This document shows, in pieces, positions 33,894 to 41,680 of a stretch of 64,000 bases of DNA. Position 1 is the stretch's first letter. Every line of letters begins with the position of its first letter. Both the position numbers and the translations under genes were made by a program. The DNA comes from Microbacterium neungamense (GTDB taxonomy: Bacteria; Actinomycetota; Actinomycetes; Actinomycetales; Microbacteriaceae): positions 1,240,001 through 1,304,000 of the forward strand of contig NZ_CP069717.1 of NCBI RefSeq assembly GCF_024971095.1, read 5' to 3'. The notes below the pieces were generated by a model. It saw nothing but the letters and a program-made list of their open reading frames with translations, made no database searches and was not told the DNA's origin.

Positions 33894-35183
33894 GTGACTC
33901 CTGCCACGACCAAGAAGACCCGGACGACGAAGAAGACCGCGGAAGCCGACGCTCCGGAGACCGAGGACGCCGCCGCCGAGACCGCGGCGCCCGCGAAGAA
34001 GACTGCATCCAAGAAGGCGCCGGCGAAGAAGGCCGCGCCCAAGAAGGCGGCCGCCAAGACGTCCAAGAAGAAGGACGACGACGAGGACGCCCCCGAAGAG
34101 CTCGCCGACGCCGACACGGCCGAGGCCGAGGGCGAGGTCGCCGAGGCGGATGCCGAGGAGGAGGGCGACAAGAAGCCGGCCTTCACCGAGCCGCTGCCCA
34201 CCGGCGCCATCGTCATCTCCTCCAGCGACGAGGACGACGTCCCGGTCTACTCCACGCAGATTACCGGCGCCACCGCCGACCCGGTCAAGGACTACCTGAA
34301 GCAGATCGGAAAGGTCGCGCTGCTGAACGCGGCCGAAGAGGTCGAGCTGGCCATGCGCATCGAGGCCGGCCTGTTCGCCGAGGAGAAGCTCTCGCACATG
34401 AGCGAGGCCGAGAAGTCCAGCCAGCTCGGCCTCGACCTGCAGTGGGTGGCCCGCGACGGCCAGCGTGCGAAGAGCCACCTGCTGGGCGCGAACCTGCGTC
34501 TGGTCGTCTCCCTCGCCAAGCGCTACACCGGTCGCGGCATGCAGTTCCTGGACCTCATCCAGGAAGGCAACCTGGGCCTCATCCGCGCGGTGGAGAAGTT
34601 CGACTACACCAAGGGCTTCAAGTTCTCCACGTACGCCACCTGGTGGATCCGTCAGGCGATCACCCGCGCCATGGCCGACCAGGCGCGCACCATCCGCATC
34701 CCGGTGCACATGGTCGAGGTCATCAACAAGCTCGCCCGCGTGCAGCGCCAGATGCTGCAGGACCTGGGCCGCGAGCCCACGCCGGAGGAGCTGTCCAAGG
34801 AACTCGACATGACCCCGGAGAAGGTCATCGAGGTGCAGAAGTACGGTCGCGAGCCGATCTCGCTGCACACCCCGCTGGGCGAGGACGGCGACAGCGAGTT
34901 CGGCGACCTGATCGAGGACACCGAGGCGGTCGTCCCGGCCGACGCGGTCGGATTCACCATGCTGCAGCGCCAGCTGGAGCAGCTGCTGGACTCGCTGTCC
35001 GAGCGCGAAGCCGGCGTGATCCGCATGCGCTTCGGCCTCGGCGACGGGCAGCCGAAGACGCTCGACCAGATCGGCGACACCTTCGGCGTCACGCGCGAGC
35101 GGATCCGCCAGATCGAGTCCAAGACGATGGCGAAGCTGCGGCACCCCAGCCGCTCGCAGTCGCTCCGGGACTACCTCGAGTGA
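33894..35183 (+). CDS. sigA: Principal sigma-70 factor SigA/HrdB
   Basis: A 429-aa group-1 sigma factor that directs core RNA polymerase to housekeeping promoters. The first 110 residues are a Lys/Ala/Glu-rich low-complexity arm ([13 protein letters not shown]), variable in actinobacteria. Region 1.2 follows ([16 protein letters not shown]), then 2.3-2.4 ([20 protein letters not shown]), which melts and reads the -10. The end is region 4.2 ([20 protein letters not shown]), which reads the -35. GTG 33894 has GAAAGG 6 nt upstream. The stop overlaps the next start (TGATG), so at least part of its mRNA continues into the CofE-like and murJ genes. Confidence 0.97.
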
Positions 35184-35878
35184 TGGCCGAGGCGAACAAG
35201 GGCAAGGCCCTCACCGTCGACATCGACGGCACCACGTACCAGCGCATCCCGATCCGCACCCGCGTCGTGATGCCCGGCGACGACCTCGACGAGATCATCC
35301 GCGAGTACACCGCCGGCGTGCTGCAGGACGGCGACATCCTCTTCGTCACGGAGAAGATCGTCGCCATCACGCAGGGCCGGTCGTACCAGCTCGAGGAGAT
35401 CCGGCCCCGCCGGCTCGCCCGCTTCCTGTCGAAGTATGTCACCCGCACCAGCTACGGCATCGGCCTGGGCATGCCCGAGACGATGGAGATGGCGCTGCGC
35501 GAGTGCGGGACGCCCCGCATCCTGCTCGCCGCCGCGGTCTCCGCGGTGACCAAGGCGTTCGGGCGCCGCGGCGACTTCTACCGCGTCGCCGGGTACAAGG
35601 CGCGCTCCATCGACGGCCCCACCTCGCACACGATCCCGCCGTACAACACGGCGGTCGTGCTCGGCCCGGAGAAGCCCAGGCAGGTCGCCCAGCACCTGCG
35701 GACGCTGCTGCCGGCCGGCGTGGAGGTCGCCGTCGTGGACATCAACGACATCGGCGGCAACATCCTCGGCTCCACGCTGGACCGCGCGGGGGAGCAGCGG
35801 CTCGTGGCCATCCTCCGGGACAACCCGCTCGGGCAGGGACACGAGTCCACGCCGATGGGCGTCATCCGCGCCGCCTGA
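35183..35878 (+). CDS. CofE-like coenzyme F420:L-glutamate ligase family protein
   Basis: A 231-aa protein of the F420-0:gamma-glutamyl ligase family (CofE, COG1478). Segments are RTRVVMPGDDLDEIIREY, DGDILFVTEKIVAITQGR and VVDINDIGGNILGST, with the GDILFVTEKI GTP/metal region. CofE adds gamma-linked glutamates to F420. No other F420 gene is visible here. The gene overlaps sigA on one side (TGATG at 35181) and murJ on the other (TGATG at 35876). That fits a cell-envelope glutamate ligase better than cofactor synthesis; this is inference from context. Confidence 0.85.
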   Translation: MAEANKGKALTVDIDGTTYQRIPIRTRVVMPGDDLDEIIREYTAGVLQDGDILFVTEKIVAITQGRSYQLEEIRPRRLARFLSKYVTRTSYGIGLGMPETMEMALRECGTPRILLAAAVSAVTKAFGRRGDFYRVAGYKARSIDGPTSHTIPPYNTAVVLGPEKPRQVAQHLRTLLPAGVEVAVVDINDIGGNILGSTLDRAGEQRLVAILRDNPLGQGHESTPMGVIRAA

Positions 35879-37461
35879 TGGGGATCGGTCGCGCGAGTGC
35901 GATGATCGCAGCCGGGACGCTCGCGTCCCGGGTCACCGGGCTGCTGCGGGCCATGGTGCTCGTGGCGGCGGTCGGCACGATCAGCCAGGCCGGTGACGCG
36001 TTCGCGACCGCGAACCAGCTGCCGAACAGCATCTATGCGGTGATCTCCGCCGGGCTGCTCACCGGCGTGATCGTGCCGCAGGTGGTGCGGGTGAGCGCGC
36101 AGGAGGACGGCGGACACGACTTCCTCGCCAAGCTGCTCACGCTCGGCGCGGTCCTGGTCGGCGCCGTCACGGTCGTGGCGACCCTCGCCGCGCCGCTGCT
36201 CGTGGACCTCTACTCGCAGTACCGCCCGGAGCAGCACGCGCTGGCCACGCAGTTCGCCTACTGGTGCCTGCCGCAGCTGTTCTTCTACGGCATGTTCGCG
36301 CTGCTGGGGGAGATCCTGAACGCGCGGCGGATGTTCGCGCCGTACGCCTGGGCGCCGATCGTGAACAACCTCGTCTCCATCGGCGGGTTCGGTGTCTTCA
36401 TCGTGCTGTTCGGACAGGGCCGCAGCGCGCTCGAGGGCTGGTCGCCCGCCATGGTGGCCACCCTCGCCGGCACCGCAACCCTCGGCGTCATCGCGCAGAC
36501 CGTCGTGCTCGTACTGTTCTGGCGACGGGCGGGCATCCCGCTGCGGCTCGATTTCCGCTGGCGGGGCATGGGCCTCGGGCACATGGGGAAGCTCGCCACC
36601 TGGACGTTCCTGACCACCCTGGTCGGGCAGCTGGTGGGGATCGTGCAGGCTCTCACGGTCACGCCCGCCTCCGAAGGCGGGCACGCCTCCGTCGCGGCAT
36701 CCGGCTACGCCTGGCTGGTGTACATGGTGCCGTACTCCATGATCATCCTCGCCATCGGCACCCCGTACTTCACCCGCATCAGCGAGCACGCGGCCGCGGA
36801 GCGCGACGACGAGCTGAAGGCGGACATCCGGCAGTCGCTCCGCGTGCTCGGCCTGTTCATCGTGATCGCGATCGCCGCGGTCGCCGCCGCCGCGCAGCCC
36901 GCCGCACGGGTGTTCAGCGAAGGCCCGGGGGAGGCGGTCGCCGTCGCGCCGGTGCTGCTGGCGTACCTGGTCAGCCTGCTGCCGATGGCGGTGCTCTTCA
37001 TCGTGCAGCGCACCTTCTACGCGTACGGCGACGCGCGCACCCCGTTCGTGTTCACGATGGTGCAGGGCTCGCTCGTGCTCGCGTTCACCCTCGTCGTGGC
37101 CGCCACGGTGCCGGTCGAGAATCTGGCCGCGGCCGTCGCGCTCGCGCAGTCCTGCGCCGGCATCCTGCAGACCGTGCTGGCGACGGTGCTGCTGCGCCGC
37201 CGGATCGGCTCGCTCGGCCTCGGCGGGGTGTGGCGCGCCCTGACCCGCTTCGCGCTGATGGCGGTGCCCGCCGGCGCGGCCGGGTACGGCGTGTACCTGC
37301 TCTCCGGTGGCGTCGGCGGATGGATGCTCGCCGGTCAGCTCTGGGGGGTGCTCGGATGCTGCCTCATCGCCGCATCCGCCGGTGCCGTGTACGTGGCGCT
37401 GCTCGCGCTGTTCCGGGTGCCGGAGCTGCGCACCGCGTTGGGCGCGCTGCGCCGGCGCTGA
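35878..37461 (+). CDS. murJ: MurJ/MviN-type lipid II flippase
   Basis: A 527-aa polytopic membrane protein with about 14 hydrophobic helices. The N-terminal GTLASRVTGLLRAMVLVAAVG is the MviN signature of the MOP-fold lipid II flippase family. Conserved loops such as NQLPNSIYAVISAGLLTGVI and QRTFYAYGDARTPF are present. It moves peptidoglycan precursors to the outer leaflet. There is no C-terminal pseudokinase extension as in Mycobacterium MviN. The ATG overlaps the preceding stop (TGATG) and lacks a ribosome site, so it depends on translational coupling. The 3' end runs into a REP array. Confidence 0.93.
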   Translation: MGIGRASAMIAAGTLASRVTGLLRAMVLVAAVGTISQAGDAFATANQLPNSIYAVISAGLLTGVIVPQVVRVSAQEDGGHDFLAKLLTLGAVLVGAVTVVATLAAPLLVDLYSQYRPEQHALATQFAYWCLPQLFFYGMFALLGEILNARRMFAPYAWAPIVNNLVSIGGFGVFIVLFGQGRSALEGWSPAMVATLAGTATLGVIAQTVVLVLFWRRAGIPLRLDFRWRGMGLGHMGKLATWTFLTTLVGQLVGIVQALTVTPASEGGHASVAASGYAWLVYMVPYSMIILAIGTPYFTRISEHAAAERDDELKADIRQSLRVLGLFIVIAIAAVAAAAQPAARVFSEGPGEAVAVAPVLLAYLVSLLPMAVLFIVQRTFYAYGDARTPFVFTMVQGSLVLAFTLVVAATVPVENLAAAVALAQSCAGILQTVLATVLLRRRIGSLGLGGVWRALTRFALMAVPAGAAGYGVYLLSGGVGGWMLAGQLWGVLGCCLIAASAGAVYVALLALFRVPELRTALGALRRR

Positions 37462-37524
37462 CGCTTCGACAGGCTCAGCGTCCGCTTCGACAGGCTCAGC
37501 GTCCGCGTCGACAGGCTCAGCGTC
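37462..37524. repeat. REP-like array, three tandem 21-bp units
   Basis: Units 37462-37482, 37483-37503 and 37504-37524 carry CTTCGACAGGCTCAGCG; the third has CGTCG for CTTCG. It fills the gap between the convergent murJ and ATP-grasp genes, starting one base after the murJ stop. Confidence 0.95.
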
Positions 37525-37526
37525 CG

Positions 37527-38558
37527 TCAGCGCTTGTCGAGCACGCCGGGGCCGATCGCCTCGACGTAGCGGTGCAGCAGGCCGGTGCGGACACCGGAGG
37601 CCGAGGGCTTCATCTGGAACACGCTCGAGTTGTGGTTCGCCTCGATGAGAGCCGGGCCGTCCGGGGTGATCGCGATGTCCCAGCCGACGTAGGGCACGGT
37701 GGGCAGGCGCTTGGCCGCGTCCTCGATCATCGCGACGACCTCGGGGTAGAACGGCACCCGGAAGCCCTGAATCCGCGTGCCCGTGGCCGGGTGCTCGTGG
37801 TAGATGTTCGACTGCTTGTCCACGCCCGGGTAGAGCGCGACGCCGTCGTCGTCGAGCATCGTGAACATCCCGCCGGAGGCGAAGTTGTCGATCACCGAGC
37901 CGTTGCCGATGCGCAGCACCGAGGCGATCACGTGCAGCCGGTCCTGCGGGTCGCGGTACGTGATCATCCGCACCGTGTTGACGCTGTCCGGGTACAGCGC
38001 GTTCAGGTCGTCATGCTGGCGCAGCACCTCCTCCAGCAGCGTCTGATCGCGCTCGACGAGCGCGGCGCGCCACGCGGCGACGTCCTCGATGTCCGCGGTG
38101 TGGTAGATCGCGATCCCCGCGCCGCCCTCGCCCTGCGCCGGCTTGGCGATCACGCGGGGGTGGCGCTCCAGGAAGTCGCGCAGATCCTGCTCGGAGGCGC
38201 GGGAGGCGTCGATCCAGTCCCGCCGGGTGAGGTCGGCGAAGTCGGCGAGGAAGCGCAGCTTGTCGCCCAGGATCACCTTCGAGTCCGGGCCGTTCAGCGT
38301 CTTGTTCAGCCGGAACGCCTTCGGATGCGTCATCCAGGTGGCGCGCTCCCGTGCGTTCAGGATGCGGATGTCCCACACCACGTAGTCCCGGAAGCCCATC
38401 TCGTAGCGCACCGAGCACCACAGCATGTCGGCGAGGATGACCGGCAGCGGAGCCTTCGACACCCGCTTCACCTGGCGAGCGAGCTCGAGCAGCTGGGTCG
38501 GATTCAGCCGCCGTGCCCGGTCGATGAGGTACCGGACGCGCAACCGCTTCTGATCCAT
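37527..38558 (-). CDS. ATP-grasp ligase, sugar-transfer-associated (ATPgrasp_ST) type, copy 1
   Basis: A 343-aa soluble ATP-grasp protein. Nucleotide-binding strands are RVIAKPAQGEGGAGIAIY; the metal-binding end is TPDGPALIEANHNSS. The sequence VPYVGWDIAIT is shared with its divergent paralogue at 38652. The family (PF14397) joins a carboxylate to an amine with ATP; substrates are mostly unknown, and members occur in capsule and wall clusters. It is divergent from copy 2 and next to murJ. A TAACCT hexamer ends 6 bp before the ATG, so it may be leaderless. A role adding an amino acid to a cell-wall precursor is inferred. Confidence 0.82.
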   Translation of the reverse strand: MDQKRLRVRYLIDRARRLNPTQLLELARQVKRVSKAPLPVILADMLWCSVRYEMGFRDYVVWDIRILNARERATWMTHPKAFRLNKTLNGPDSKVILGDKLRFLADFADLTRRDWIDASRASEQDLRDFLERHPRVIAKPAQGEGGAGIAIYHTADIEDVAAWRAALVERDQTLLEEVLRQHDDLNALYPDSVNTVRMITYRDPQDRLHVIASVLRIGNGSVIDNFASGGMFTMLDDDGVALYPGVDKQSNIYHEHPATGTRIQGFRVPFYPEVVAMIEDAAKRLPTVPYVGWDIAITPDGPALIEANHNSSVFQMKPSASGVRTGLLHRYVEAIGPGVLDKR

Positions 38559-38564
38559 CCGACC

Positions 38565-38570
38565 AGGTTA
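38565..38570 (-). promoter_or_regulatory. -10 element for leaderless ATP-grasp copy 1
   Basis: TAACCT on the minus strand, 6 bp from the ATG at 38558. Confidence 0.45.
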
Positions 38571-38651
38571 ACACGCAGGCGTCACAGGGCCCGGCGAGGG
38601 GGAGCGGCTACCATGGGACGTTCCCACCCGTCCGCCTCGAAAGGTCCTGCC

Positions 38652-39683
38652 TTGTCCCGAGACGTCGCACTCACGGCGCGCCTGAAGTACTTGCTGAAGC
38701 GGCTGACCGCGTTCAACCCCGGCCGGGTCTGGTCGTTCGCGACGCAGATCGCGCAGGAGCAGGGCAAGTGGGCCCCGTGGATCTTCGTGGACATGCTCAT
38801 CTGGGCGGCGTTCCACGACACCGCGTACATCGACTACTACGAGGCCGACTTCGCGCTGCTCACCCGCGCCGAGCGCAAGACGTTCATGACCTCGCTGATC
38901 CAGCACCACCTCGCGCAGGCGCTGAACGACCGCACCGACGTGCTGCAGTTCGAGAACAAGCTCTCCTTCAACCGCCGCTTCGCCGCCTACCTCGGCCGCG
39001 AGTGGCTCGACCTGGCGGAGACCGACGCGGAGGGGCTGCGCGCCTTCGCCGAGCGGCATCCGGTGATCATCGCCAAGACGCCGGTCGGGCGCGAGGGCAA
39101 GGGCGTGTTCCGCTACGACACCGCCGAGGTCGCCGACTGGGAGGGGTTCCGCACCGAGCTGCTGGAGAAGGGGCAGCGCCTGCTCGAGCAGCCCATCGTG
39201 CAGCATCCGTACCTCGCCGAGTACTGCGCGGGCACCGTGAACACGACCCGCGTGGCCACGTTCTTCGACGGGCAGACCGTGCACGTGCTGATGGCGGCGC
39301 AGAAGTTCGGCCGCGGCGCGGTCAGCGACCAGTTCACCTGGGGCGGGTTCTTCACGATGCTGGACGAGAACGGGCACTCGGTGGGGCCCGGGCACACCGG
39401 GAAGCACAAGAGCCGCTACGAGACGCACCCCGATTCGGGCGCCTCCATCGTCGACTTCCAGGTGCCGATGTGGGACCGCGTCGTCGAGCTCGTCGACCGT
39501 GCCGCGCGCGAGGTGCCCACCGTGCCCTACGTCGGCTGGGACGTCGCCGTCGGCCCCGACGGCCCGGTGCTGATCGAGGGCAACTGGACCCCCGGACTGT
39601 ACGAGACGCGCGTCAGCGCCACCGGCATCCGCACCGGCAGCAAGGAGCGGCATCGCCCGGTGATCGAGGCCAGCCGCCGATGA
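38652..39683 (+). CDS. ATP-grasp ligase, sugar-transfer-associated type, copy 2
   Basis: A 343-aa paralogue of the divergent gene. It has HPVIIAKTPVGREGKGVFRY for nucleotide binding and VLIEGNWTPGLYE as the metal-binding end, with Gly where copy 1 has Ala. The TTG at 38652 is chosen over ATG 38613: GAAAGG lies 7 nt before it, the N-terminus then aligns with copy 1 (both reach an N-P pair about 20 residues in), and both proteins become exactly 343 aa. The differences around IEANHNSS / IEGNWTPG suggest different substrates. It is first in an operon with the two racemase-like genes, joined by an 8-codon mini-ORF. Confidence 0.82.
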   Translation: MSRDVALTARLKYLLKRLTAFNPGRVWSFATQIAQEQGKWAPWIFVDMLIWAAFHDTAYIDYYEADFALLTRAERKTFMTSLIQHHLAQALNDRTDVLQFENKLSFNRRFAAYLGREWLDLAETDAEGLRAFAERHPVIIAKTPVGREGKGVFRYDTAEVADWEGFRTELLEKGQRLLEQPIVQHPYLAEYCAGTVNTTRVATFFDGQTVHVLMAAQKFGRGAVSDQFTWGGFFTMLDENGHSVGPGHTGKHKSRYETHPDSGASIVDFQVPMWDRVVELVDRAAREVPTVPYVGWDVAVGPDGPVLIEGNWTPGLYETRVSATGIRTGSKERHRPVIEASRR

Positions 39684-39706
39684 CCGCGGCCTCCGACGCA
39701 CGATGA
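39680..39706 (+). other. Eight-codon mini-ORF bridging two coupled genes
   Basis: ATG 39680 overlaps the ATP-grasp stop as ATGA (39680-39683) and reads eight codons (MTAASDAR). It ends in a TGA at 39704-39706 that overlaps the racemase-like ATG as ATGA (39703-39706). No ribosome site lies before either ATG. It would let a terminating ribosome restart twice and reach the next gene. The peptide itself is probably not functional. Confidence 0.5.
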
Positions 39707-40395
39707 GCGGCTCTCGCAGCCTGCCGCGGGCCGAGATCTCGGCGCGCGCCGTCCGCGAGGCGGCCGAGGCGGCCGTCGCCGCCGGCGGCGTTGTCGCCGA
39801 CCTGCGCGGCGACGCGTACGGTCACGGCGTCGCAGAGACGGCGCGGGTGGTGACGGATGCCGGCGTCCGCGCCGTGCTGGTGGACGACGCGCGGACCGTC
39901 GAAAGCCTCGCGGCATCCGGCATCCGCGCCGTCACCGACGGCGAGGCGGACATCGCCCCCGAGGCGCTGTACGGCCTGCCCGGCGCGGAGGACAGCCGGA
40001 CGCCCGCCATGCGCCTCGCCGGGCGGGTGCTCTCGGTGAAGCGGATGCTCGCGGGCGAGGCCGTCTCGTACGGGTACACGCACCGCGCCACCGTGGACAC
40101 CACCACGGCGCTCGTCACCGGCGGGTACGCGCAGGGCGTCGTGCGGGCTCTCGGCAATCACGCCCGGGTGGAGATCGACGGGGTGCTGCGCCCGATCATC
40201 GGCCGCGTGGCGATGGACGTCTGCGTCGTGGACCTGGAGGGGGCGCACGCGGAGGAGGGGACGGACGTGATCTACTTCGGCGGCACCGGGCCGGCCCGGG
40301 ACGCGCTGGCGGACTGGGCCCGCATCACCGGCCTCCGCCCCACCGAGCTGGTCGCCGTGGCCGGCGCGAAGGCGGTGCGCGAATGGCGAGCATGA
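39703..40395 (+). CDS. Alanine-racemase-family protein A: beta domain with Tyr, truncated barrel without the PLP lysine
   Basis: A 230-aa protein, against about 370 for alanine racemase. Residues 9-70 match the first strands and helices of the PLP barrel, but the lysine position before DAYGHG is Arg35 (LRGDAYGHG). Most of the barrel is missing. From about residue 100 the C-terminal beta domain is intact: AVSYGYTHRA with Tyr123, the residue that acts as the second base across the dimer, then TGGYAQGVVRALGNHARVEI and IIGRVAMDVCVVD. The protein cannot hold PLP by itself. The next gene supplies the lysine. Start ATG 39703 has no ribosome site and is reached by coupling. Confidence 0.8.
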   Translation: MSGSRSLPRAEISARAVREAAEAAVAAGGVVADLRGDAYGHGVAETARVVTDAGVRAVLVDDARTVESLAASGIRAVTDGEADIAPEALYGLPGAEDSRTPAMRLAGRVLSVKRMLAGEAVSYGYTHRATVDTTTALVTGGYAQGVVRALGNHARVEIDGVLRPIIGRVAMDVCVVDLEGAHAEEGTDVIYFGGTGPARDALADWARITGLRPTELVAVAGAKAVREWRA

Positions 40396-41447
40396 TCCCG
40401 CCGGCCGCCGGGCCGACCCTGAGGATCTCGCACCGCCGGTTCCTCGCGAACATCGACGCCGTGCGGATGCGGATCGCCCCGTCCGAGCTGATGCTGGTGA
40501 TGAAGGACGACGCCTACGGCCACGGCCTGGAGTGGGCGGTGGACGCCGCCCGCGGCGACGTGGACCTCTTCGGTGGCTACGACATCCCGACCTCGCTGCG
40601 GATCGCCGCGCGGGCACCCGGCGCGCGCGTGTTCGCCTGGGCCACCTCCGCGCAGCACGAGGTGGAGGAGGCTCTGCACGCCGGGGTCGAGCTCGGCGTG
40701 GGAACCACGGCGTACCTGCGGCGCGTGATCGCCGCGGCCGAACGGCTCGGCCGGCGGGCACGCGTGCACCTGAAGATCGACACCGGACTGCGCCGCAACG
40801 GCATGCGTCCCGAGGAGTGGCCGGAGGCGGTGGCCGAAGCCGCCGCGGCGCAGCGGGCGGGTCTGCTCGACGTGGCCGGGGTGTGGAGCCACCTCGCGGA
40901 GGCCAGCGACGAGGAGGACGACGCCGCGGCCGCCGAGTTCCGCCGCGCGGTCGCCGCCGTGCGCACGGCCGGCGCCCGGCCGGCGGCCCTGCACCTGACG
41001 GCGTCGGCCGCGTCGTGGTGGCGCCCCGAGCTGCGCGGCAGCGTGTGCCGGATCGGCGCGTTCTGCTACGGCATCCGCTCGGCGGACGGACCCGAGATCC
41101 CCGGGGTGCGCCCGATCGCGGCGCTCACGGCGCCCGTGATCGCCGCGGACGGCGACGGCGGCGATGCGGTGATCGGCATCGGCGCGCTGCACGGGCTGCC
41201 CTCGACCCTCGCCGGTGTGCGGATCGCCACTCCGGCAGGTCTGCGGGAACTCACCCGCATCGACGAACTGCGCAGCAGCGTGCGCGGCTGGCCGGGCGCC
41301 GCCCCCGGTCAGGAGGTCCGGCTGTTCGGGCCGGGCGCGCACGGGGAACCGGATGCCACCGCTCTCGCGGAGCGGATCGGCACGGTCGGCGAGGAGATCG
41401 TCACCCGGCTCACACCCGCGGTGGGCCGTGTCGTGACCGCGGCCTGA
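40392..41447 (+). CDS. Alanine-racemase-family protein B: full PLP barrel, C-domain lacks the catalytic Tyr segment
   Basis: A 351-aa protein. The barrel is complete: LMLVMKDDAYGHGL with the PLP lysine Lys38 (Lys41 if started at ATG 40383), HLKIDTGLRRNGM, GVWSHLAEASDE and RIGAFCYGI. The C-domain opens normally (IAALTAPVIAAD) and closes normally (IGTVGEEIVTRLTP), but the SYGxT / GYADG section between them is missing, so no second-base Tyr is present. The start ATG at 40392 overlaps the previous stop as ATGA. With protein A it could form one complete active site. Substrate could be alanine or a diamino acid such as ornithine or lysine. Confidence 0.82.
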   Translation: MIPPAAGPTLRISHRRFLANIDAVRMRIAPSELMLVMKDDAYGHGLEWAVDAARGDVDLFGGYDIPTSLRIAARAPGARVFAWATSAQHEVEEALHAGVELGVGTTAYLRRVIAAAERLGRRARVHLKIDTGLRRNGMRPEEWPEAVAEAAAAQRAGLLDVAGVWSHLAEASDEEDDAAAAEFRRAVAAVRTAGARPAALHLTASAASWWRPELRGSVCRIGAFCYGIRSADGPEIPGVRPIAALTAPVIAADGDGGDAVIGIGALHGLPSTLAGVRIATPAGLRELTRIDELRSSVRGWPGAAPGQEVRLFGPGAHGEPDATALAERIGTVGEEIVTRLTPAVGRVVTAA

Positions 41448-41473: not shown

Positions 41474-41680
41474 TCAGGCGGTCTCCTCGAGACGGGCGGT
41501 CTCGTCGTGCCAGCTCGTGGCGATGGCGCGCAGCTTCTCCTCGTACTTGCGTCCGTGGTGGGCGCAGAACAGCAGCTCGGACCCGTTCACCTCGGCGGCG
41601 ATGTAGGCCTGGGCCCCGCAGGAGTCGCACCGGTCCATGGCGGTGAGGCGGTACTCGACCCGCTCGGTCGTAGCGTTCAT
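41474..41680 (-). CDS. DUF7455 small zinc-binding-like protein
   Basis: A 68-aa actinobacterial protein. CDSCGAQAYIAAEV followed by LFCAHHGRKYEEKL gives a C-x2-C ... C-x-HH set that should bind zinc. Homologues sit near the principal sigma factor and topoisomerase genes across actinobacteria (Rv2708c type). GAGGAGG lies 7 nt before the ATG, one of the strongest ribosome sites in the window. Function unknown; the conserved position near sigA suggests a link to transcription, without proof. Confidence 0.88.
   Translation of the reverse strand: MNATTERVEYRLTAMDRCDSCGAQAYIAAEVNGSELLFCAHHGRKYEEKLRAIATSWHDETARLEETA

Follow-up and report, generated by a model that had tools for sequence, protein, structure and literature searches.

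Within a window of 64,000 nucleotides from Microbacterium neungamense (assembly GCF_024971095.1, contig NZ_CP069717.1, positions 1,240,001 to 1,304,000), two overlapping genes of the alanine racemase family, here called A and B, appear to encode an obligate heterodimer that has the alanine-racemase fold and a single functional active site, a reading to which we assign a probability of roughly 85%; its substrate is probably not alanine. Alanine racemase (Alr), an antibiotic target, is the textbook case of a homodimer whose two active sites are composite. In the portions consulted of two papers, each site takes its pyridoxal 5′-phosphate (PLP) lysine from one subunit and a tyrosine from the other across a head-to-tail interface (PMC3485190, PMC4517790). 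Our reading is based on reciprocal residue losses in A and B, the conservation of what remains, the overlap of the two genes, natural fusions, genomes with asymmetric enzymes only, and the fold; from these, the physical dimer of the window pair, one site per dimer, a substrate and a pathway are predicted.

A and B carry complementary parts of a proposed single active site

Conservation was assessed among database homologues of A (120 listed of 1142, mostly Microbacterium where a name is given) and of B (120 listed of 1443), in an alignment of 37 A and 37 B proteins encoded by separate genes (split A and split B), and at 80 named loci, where the lysine position of A is biased towards Arg since the scan pattern required that residue. 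In the aligned set, 31 of each protein came from the same loci (L009–L043, 19 genera), and the remaining six A and six B were database entries whose partnership with one another is not known; the intact tandem pair L034 was left out, L028, L036 and L038 were counted as fusions, and B is truncated at L033 and L035. Aligned in the same frame were 88 canonical Alr, the database sequences of 350–440 amino acids (aa) among 120 listed. Column names such as Lys39 follow what we take to be Geobacillus numbering, compared with passages of two alanine-racemase papers. The features of the pair are as follows.

39703–40395, + strand: gene A, 230 aa, putative non-PLP subunit; remnant of three beta-alpha barrel units and a complete alanine-racemase C-domain
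39805–39807, + strand: Arg35 codon CGC, at the PLP-lysine position; Arg in 120/120 listed homologues, never Lys in 37 split A
40069–40071, + strand: Tyr123 (in SYGYT), counterpart of the trans catalytic Tyr265′; 120/120 listed homologues, 37/37 split A
40213–40218, + strand: Met171-Asp172 (in GRVAMD), counterpart of Met312′/Asp313′; each 120/120 in listed homologues
40392–40395, + strand: ATGA overlap of A stop and B start, 4 nucleotides; translational coupling
40392–41447, + strand: gene B, 351 aa, putative PLP subunit; whole barrel and degenerate C-domain; alternative upstream start at 40383
40503–40505, + strand: Lys38 codon AAG, PLP lysine; 120/120 listed homologues, 37/37 split B, 80/80 named B
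41391–41393, + strand: Glu334, aligned with Tyr354 of Alr, which governs alanine specificity

An earlier note on this DNA had described A as carrying Arg35 in place of the PLP lysine on a barrel stub while keeping the SYGYT tyrosine and GRVAMD, and B as keeping the lysine and barrel and losing the tyrosine section; both descriptions hold, with the C-domain of B degenerate rather than absent. Against Pfam, A matched Ala_racemase_C over residues 102–225 (95.2 bits) and gave no Ala_racemase_N match. Its Arg35 lies in the segment ADLRGDAYGHG, and split A proteins have Arg (32), Asp (2), Ser (2) or Thr (1) there. The arginine that the note had singled out is thus not universal, since Ser, Thr, Asp or Gly also occur outside Microbacterium; what stood is the loss of the lysine, the sole constant at this position in the sequences read. 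These replacements also rule out Arg35 as a new catalytic residue. Split A proteins retain Tyr265′ and Met312′ (37/37 each), Tyr or Phe at Tyr284′ (37/37), and Asp (34/37) or Asn (3/37) next to the methionine, so that A carries the residues that act in trans in Alr: Tyr265′, Tyr284′, Met312′ and Asp313′.

B has the opposite pattern. It matched Ala_racemase_N over residues 13–229 (143 bits), with Lys38 in the segment VMKDDAYGHG, while its C-domain matched profile positions 74–126 alone, at 22.5 bits against a cut-off of 25. Neither SYG nor GRxxMD is present in B; among its listed homologues, GRxxMD occurs in 0/120 and SYG in 1/120, at the barrel end and away from the catalytic site. Tyr265 and Met312 are found in 0/37 split B, and no intact tyrosine segment was found in the 37 split or 80 named B proteins; three apparent Tyr265 residues in named B (L175, L198, L199) proved to be a misplaced GYADG-type strand. 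The residues kept by B are those acting in cis in Alr, namely Lys39, Lys129, Arg136, His166 and Arg219. A search for A homologues with a normal lysine likewise gave 0/37 split A and 0/29 A halves of the fusions described below.

We propose that B would bind PLP on Lys38 as an internal aldimine and supply Lys128, Arg135, His167 and Arg220. A would dock head-to-tail, with Tyr123 as the second acid/base, and would also supply Tyr142, with Met171 and Asp172 lying near the substrate carboxylate. By analogy with Alr chemistry, one site per AB unit would form; the opposite site, made of the A barrel and the B C-domain, would be dead and dismantled, which would account for A keeping only a barrel stub. 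The single competent site from the B lysine and the A tyrosine, as the earlier note had it, is supported by the reciprocal conserved losses and by natural fusions.

It is improbable, in our judgement, that B is instead a whole enzyme that needs no tyrosine in trans (for example by one-base chemistry, as in other fold-III PLP proteins), with A as its regulator or scaffold. B does retain the barrel-side PLP and substrate residues that were checked, and dead paralogues that activate their partners are known, as far as the parts consulted of two reports show (PMC3663545, PMC5201418). However, A retains exactly the residues lost from B, although active-site residues need not persist in a regulator, and in the g50 chain described below A is reduced to its C-domain, tyrosine included.

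Fusions, minimal forms and genomes with asymmetric enzymes only

When a 602-residue protein from one genome was used as query, at least 29 B-A fusions of 568–678 aa were found (120 listed of 2870), the genus names given being Gulosibacter and Pseudoclavibacter. Their B halves carry the lysine (29/29) and neither SYG nor GRxxMD; their A halves have Ser (24), Thr (3), Gly (1) or Ala (1) at the lysine position, and the tyrosine and methionine in 29/29. The wide conservation of the pair and these natural fusions of the same halves argue that A and B work together as one enzyme. An AlphaFold model of a natural B-A fusion had a predicted template modelling score of 0.90 with two confidently placed lobes. 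In Foldseek, the whole fusion superposed on one PDB chain (about 600 columns) with a root-mean-square deviation (rmsd) of 16.5–18.8 Å and the B half with 2.4 Å; the VIA listing hardly covered the A half. We read the large rmsd as suggesting that the A C-domain lies outside the cis position, which does not by itself prove the trans position.

In genus g50, a single open reading frame (ORF) encodes a barrel with the lysine, a dead C-domain, a live C-domain (SYGG, GRVAMD) and then a P-loop segment that we take to be TsaE-like (5/5 genomes sampled). These ORFs, with their racemase barrel, two C-domains and P-loop domain, are L294–L298 (genomes G119, G049, G511, G464 and G551). In g78, both Alr-family enzymes show the split-pair domain pattern in 5/5 genomes (residues read in G077 and G140), and in 6/6 g21 genomes and G136 no PF00842 domain was found outside the fusion (residues read in G020, G100 and G136). 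G073, G478 and G560 have an intact-looking Alr besides the asymmetric enzyme. Altogether, in 17 of the 20 genomes examined, every alanine-racemase C-domain found belongs to a split or fused enzyme; 10 of these 17 were read residue by residue.

The fusions and the gene overlap also bear on a very unlikely alternative, in which A modulates the canonical Alr of the same genome by hetero-dimerisation and B does something else. Genome G000 does encode a canonical Alr that is complete, having Lys, Tyr and Tyr354. Nevertheless, the overlap of A and B measures 4 nucleotides in 28 of the 32 loci with two ORFs (a total that includes the intact tandem L034), the fusions pair A with a B-type half and not with an intact Alr, and the five g78 genomes, where no intact Alr was seen, retain two such pairs. 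At the named loci, an in-frame overlap with an ATG, GTG or TTG start was found in 67/80.

Intermediates, full-length relatives and trees

Homologues of A with a normal lysine and full barrel, which the earlier note would have counted against its reading, were not among the proteins read. Four long A proteins do keep much of the barrel, but around a dead lysine position (Asp in L018, Thr in L211, Gly in L119 and Ser in L259). At 178 aa, the A of L205 is the shortest separate form observed.

In sixteen other genomes, an Alr with Tyr354 or Trp354 stands in tandem with an intact racemase that has Glu or Asp at 354 and carries both the lysine and the tyrosine on one chain. Since no split A was among the matches listed for these 16 genomes, the full-length acidic copies look like replacements and not counter-examples. 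Conversely, the 14 split-pair genomes whose alr locus was read have one Alr there, with Tyr354 (13) or Trp (1), and no acidic copy beside it. That the intact acidic copy and the split pair occur in different genomes points to a second racemase, for a substrate other than alanine, that is present in intact or in split form.

We estimated an unrooted barrel tree by a quick method under LG+G4, and a C-domain tree based on 139 columns only; the g50 chains were in neither. In the barrel tree, a branch with a Shimodaira–Hasegawa-like approximate likelihood ratio test (SH-aLRT) support of 99 parts all Glu/Asp-354 proteins (split B and full-length tandem copies) from the rest, which comprise 57 canonical proteins (52 Tyr, 4 Trp, 1 His), the fusion B halves and the g78 B′; B of L119 was mis-typed as acidic in this tree by a stray Tyr. 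The split-B label requires five changes on the tree, at least three of them forced by well-supported branches. The C-domain tree places the g78 A′ within the full-length Asp-354 tandem copies (enclosing branches with SH-aLRT 88–94), a position suggesting that the g78 heterodimer arose by conversion of an alr1-alr2 tandem. The window pair is one member of what appears to be a recurrent, family-wide asymmetric racemase architecture.

Among the tandem full-length alr pairs, L113, L115, L116, L254, L255 and L261 have the carbamylated Lys129 replaced in both copies, by Cys in the Tyr/Trp-354 copy, which also has Asn for Asp313, and by Asn, Gly or Thr in the Glu-354 copy. These copies diverged as if coordinated and might hetero-dimerise. 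A full-length Alr at L264 (G017) carries His354, Glu129 and Phe43, and sits on a long branch.

Substrate and proposed role in the cell wall

Site 354 is Tyr in 88/88 canonical Alr. In split B it is Glu (21) or Asp (14) in all 35 readable proteins, two of the 37 being truncated; named B proteins have Glu (49) or Asp (28) in 77 readable cases, three of the 80 being too short. According to the portion consulted of one study, the Tyr265′–Tyr354 spacing gives alanine specificity, and the racemases Lyr and Bar lack that tyrosine (PMC3485190). Alanine is probably not the substrate, since Glu334 occupies the site of Tyr354, the residue that gates alanine specificity, and the genome encodes a separate, complete alanine racemase. 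We infer that the substrate is cationic, probably D-ornithine or else a different diamino acid used in type-B peptidoglycan. The likeliest product would be a D-diamino acid destined for the peptidoglycan cross-bridge, which in most Microbacterium clusters would be D-ornithine.

That the same heterodimer is a second alanine racemase, acting on alanine or serine, seems unlikely to us, if far from fanciful. The fold is that of Alr, and the VanT serine racemase, in the portion consulted of the same study, has Asn at the Tyr354 site (PMC3485190). Yet the acidic residue is uniform in readable split B and absent from the 88 canonical Alr, the SH-aLRT 99 branch of the barrel tree separates acidic from Tyr354 enzymes, and the genome already has an Alr.

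As far as the consulted parts of a published survey go, most Microbacterium clusters have D-Orn, M. sufflavum and M. croceum being named for it; L-Lys is given there for M. enclense, M. gubbeenense and two of the three M. imperiale clade species (PMC10757982). In a comparison that covered these two named D-Orn species, both carry the genes, M. sufflavum as pairs (L192, L194) and M. croceum as at least A (P0078). The idea that Glu or Asp at 354 matches ornithine or diaminobutyrate by reach was dropped, as this split follows phylogeny.

Taken more broadly, it is a tentative proposal, to which we give slightly less than even odds, that Microbacteriaceae repeatedly turned a symmetric alanine racemase into an asymmetric one-site enzyme, and that the window pair is a dedicated D-ornithine racemase for type-B peptidoglycan. 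The formats would be Glu- and Asp-type split pairs, B-A fusions, a split housekeeping enzyme derived from an alr tandem, and a barrel with two C-domains and TsaE. No description of a dedicated diamino-acid racemase supply step for type-B peptidoglycan was found in the literature searched.

Distribution, selection and opposing evidence

A profile of A matched 124 of 149 sampled Microbacterium genomes (E ≤ 1e-40), although some matches span the C-domain part alone and canonical Alr reached about 1e-27 with the same profile. In 299 evenly drawn Microbacteriaceae genomes, a contiguous A-type match was present in at least 59, a hand count of listed rows with a match from position 7 or before to 227 or beyond, most not read residue by residue, which takes in no shorter or longer forms of A. 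Among the matches listed for 396 genomes drawn across the phylum, the only contiguous A-type matches were four from the own genus. Named carriers include Microbacterium, Leifsonia, Pseudoclavibacter, Diaminobutyricibacter, Homoserinibacter, Salinibacterium, Gulosibacter, Protaetiibacter, Schumannella and Frigoribacterium.

Median ratios of nonsynonymous to synonymous polymorphism (pN/pS) over 39 loci were 0.56 for A, 0.55 for B, 0.21 for ParE and 0.21 for sigA, with strong codon bias depressing pS. These elevated values, and the lack of essential residues in each protein taken singly, are what would be expected of degenerate duplicates on their way to loss. We regard this explanation as having next to no chance: Arg35, Tyr123 and Met171 of A and Lys38 of B are each invariant in 120/120 listed homologues, which rules out chance or decay, the locus is retained between a sigma-factor gene and ParE in 66/80 named loci, and the A profile is found in most Microbacterium genomes. 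The earlier note's argument against simple decay is thereby borne out.

Several points weigh against the heterodimer or its proposed role. At the threshold used, 25 of the 149 Microbacterium genomes had no match to A. The pN/pS of A and B is well above that of ParE and sigA, so purifying selection is moderate only. Distances in A and B are correlated (0.956; partial correlation 0.77; 61 loci), but the genes are adjacent and their correlated trees may reflect joint inheritance. Related full-length acidic racemases keep the ordinary arrangement. A D-amino-acid transaminase may be an alternative source of D-Ala. The acidic residue provides a charge argument and would not by itself name a substrate. 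Lastly, ligase genes of the kind that neighbour the pair occur without A/B in 16 of 20 loci picked for apparent absence of A/B (L201–L220).

Comparison with known systems

Like Alr/DadX, fold-type III PLP homodimers, A and B have the barrel and C-domain, and they align with or superpose on Alr. In contrast to Alr/DadX, their catalytic bases lie on separate gene products and one site per dimer is expected instead of two; both proteins miss the NCBIfam alr cut-off of 168 bits (A 94.9, B 94.2), and B has Glu334 where Alr has Tyr354. An engineered two-fragment Geobacillus alanine racemase is reportedly active from two polypeptides, by an artificial cut between the domains of one chain, whereas A and B are two paralogues with complementary losses. 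The full-length Glu/Asp-354 racemase beside alr in other Microbacteriaceae shares the acidic residue and the barrel-tree side of split B but, unlike the split pair, has both catalytic residues on one chain.

Lyr and Bar resemble the pair in having the Alr fold without Tyr354 and, in the part consulted of one study, accept larger basic substrates (PMC3485190); they are homodimers with Thr or Ala at 354, whereas the pair is split with Glu or Asp there. PddB, an actinobacterial 2,4-diaminobutyric acid racemase, also makes a D-diamino acid but, from the part consulted of its description, is PLP-independent and DapF-like (PMC8225329). Its fold is unrelated to that of the pair, and it is not split. 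The trypanosomatid prozymes of deoxyhypusine synthase and AdoMetDC similarly yield an active enzyme from an impaired and a dead paralogue, activation being, by title, allosteric or by relief of autoinhibition (PMC3663545, PMC5201418). Their folds are unrelated, and in our pair the catalytic base would be given in trans. Unlike prozymes, the A/B type also has single-chain fusions. The earlier note knew of no described racemase of this kind, and our literature searches, judged by title, turned up no heterodimeric, split or fused alanine racemase.

A lineage that keeps one of two sites would show a route from a shared-site homodimer to an obligate heterodimer, with apparent living intermediates: the intact tandem pair, the long partner with a dead lysine, the truncated partner, the C-domain alone, and the fusion. 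As the source of D-ornithine or D-diaminobutyrate in type-B cell walls, the pair is moreover a concrete candidate racemase. It also cautions that proteins annotated "alanine racemase" can include single chains predicted to be unable to work alone.

Genomic neighbourhood

In 66/80 named loci, a sigma-70-type gene and a type II topoisomerase gene flank the pair on its two sides; 9/80 have a partial form of this neighbourhood and 5/80 none of it. The sigma-factor domains were identified by domain search, and the flanking genes are presumably SigA, ParE and ParC, labels that we assigned from their sequences. Other neighbours in the window are listed below.

35180–35878, + strand: F420 gamma-glutamyl-ligase-like protein (PF01996)
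35902–37461, + strand: MurJ-type lipid II flippase
37527–38558, − strand: ATP-grasp ligase (PF14397)
38652–39683, + strand: second ATP-grasp ligase (PF14397), directly upstream of A
41474–41680, − strand: DUF7455 small protein (PF24254)

A joint function of the pair with its ATP-grasp, F420-ligase-like or MurT/GatD neighbours was weighed, but because the ligases stay without A/B in 16 of the 20 loci noted above, the pathway linkage is weak; two of the remaining four loci have neither ligases nor A/B, and two (L205, L211) proved to carry a pair. The slot between the sigma factor and A/B (35180–39683 in the window; L067, L069–L076 and others) holds two alternative ligase modules in one syntenic place: one consists of MurT/GatD, the other of an F420-ligase-like gene and either one or two ATP-grasp genes (PF14397), in some cases with MurJ. 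In M. sufflavum SSW1-51, two A/B pairs (L192, L194) lie on one chromosome, one of them outside the usual locus and adjoining an ATP-grasp gene. The DUF7455 protein is in view in 68/80 named pair loci and is present at loci without the pair too.
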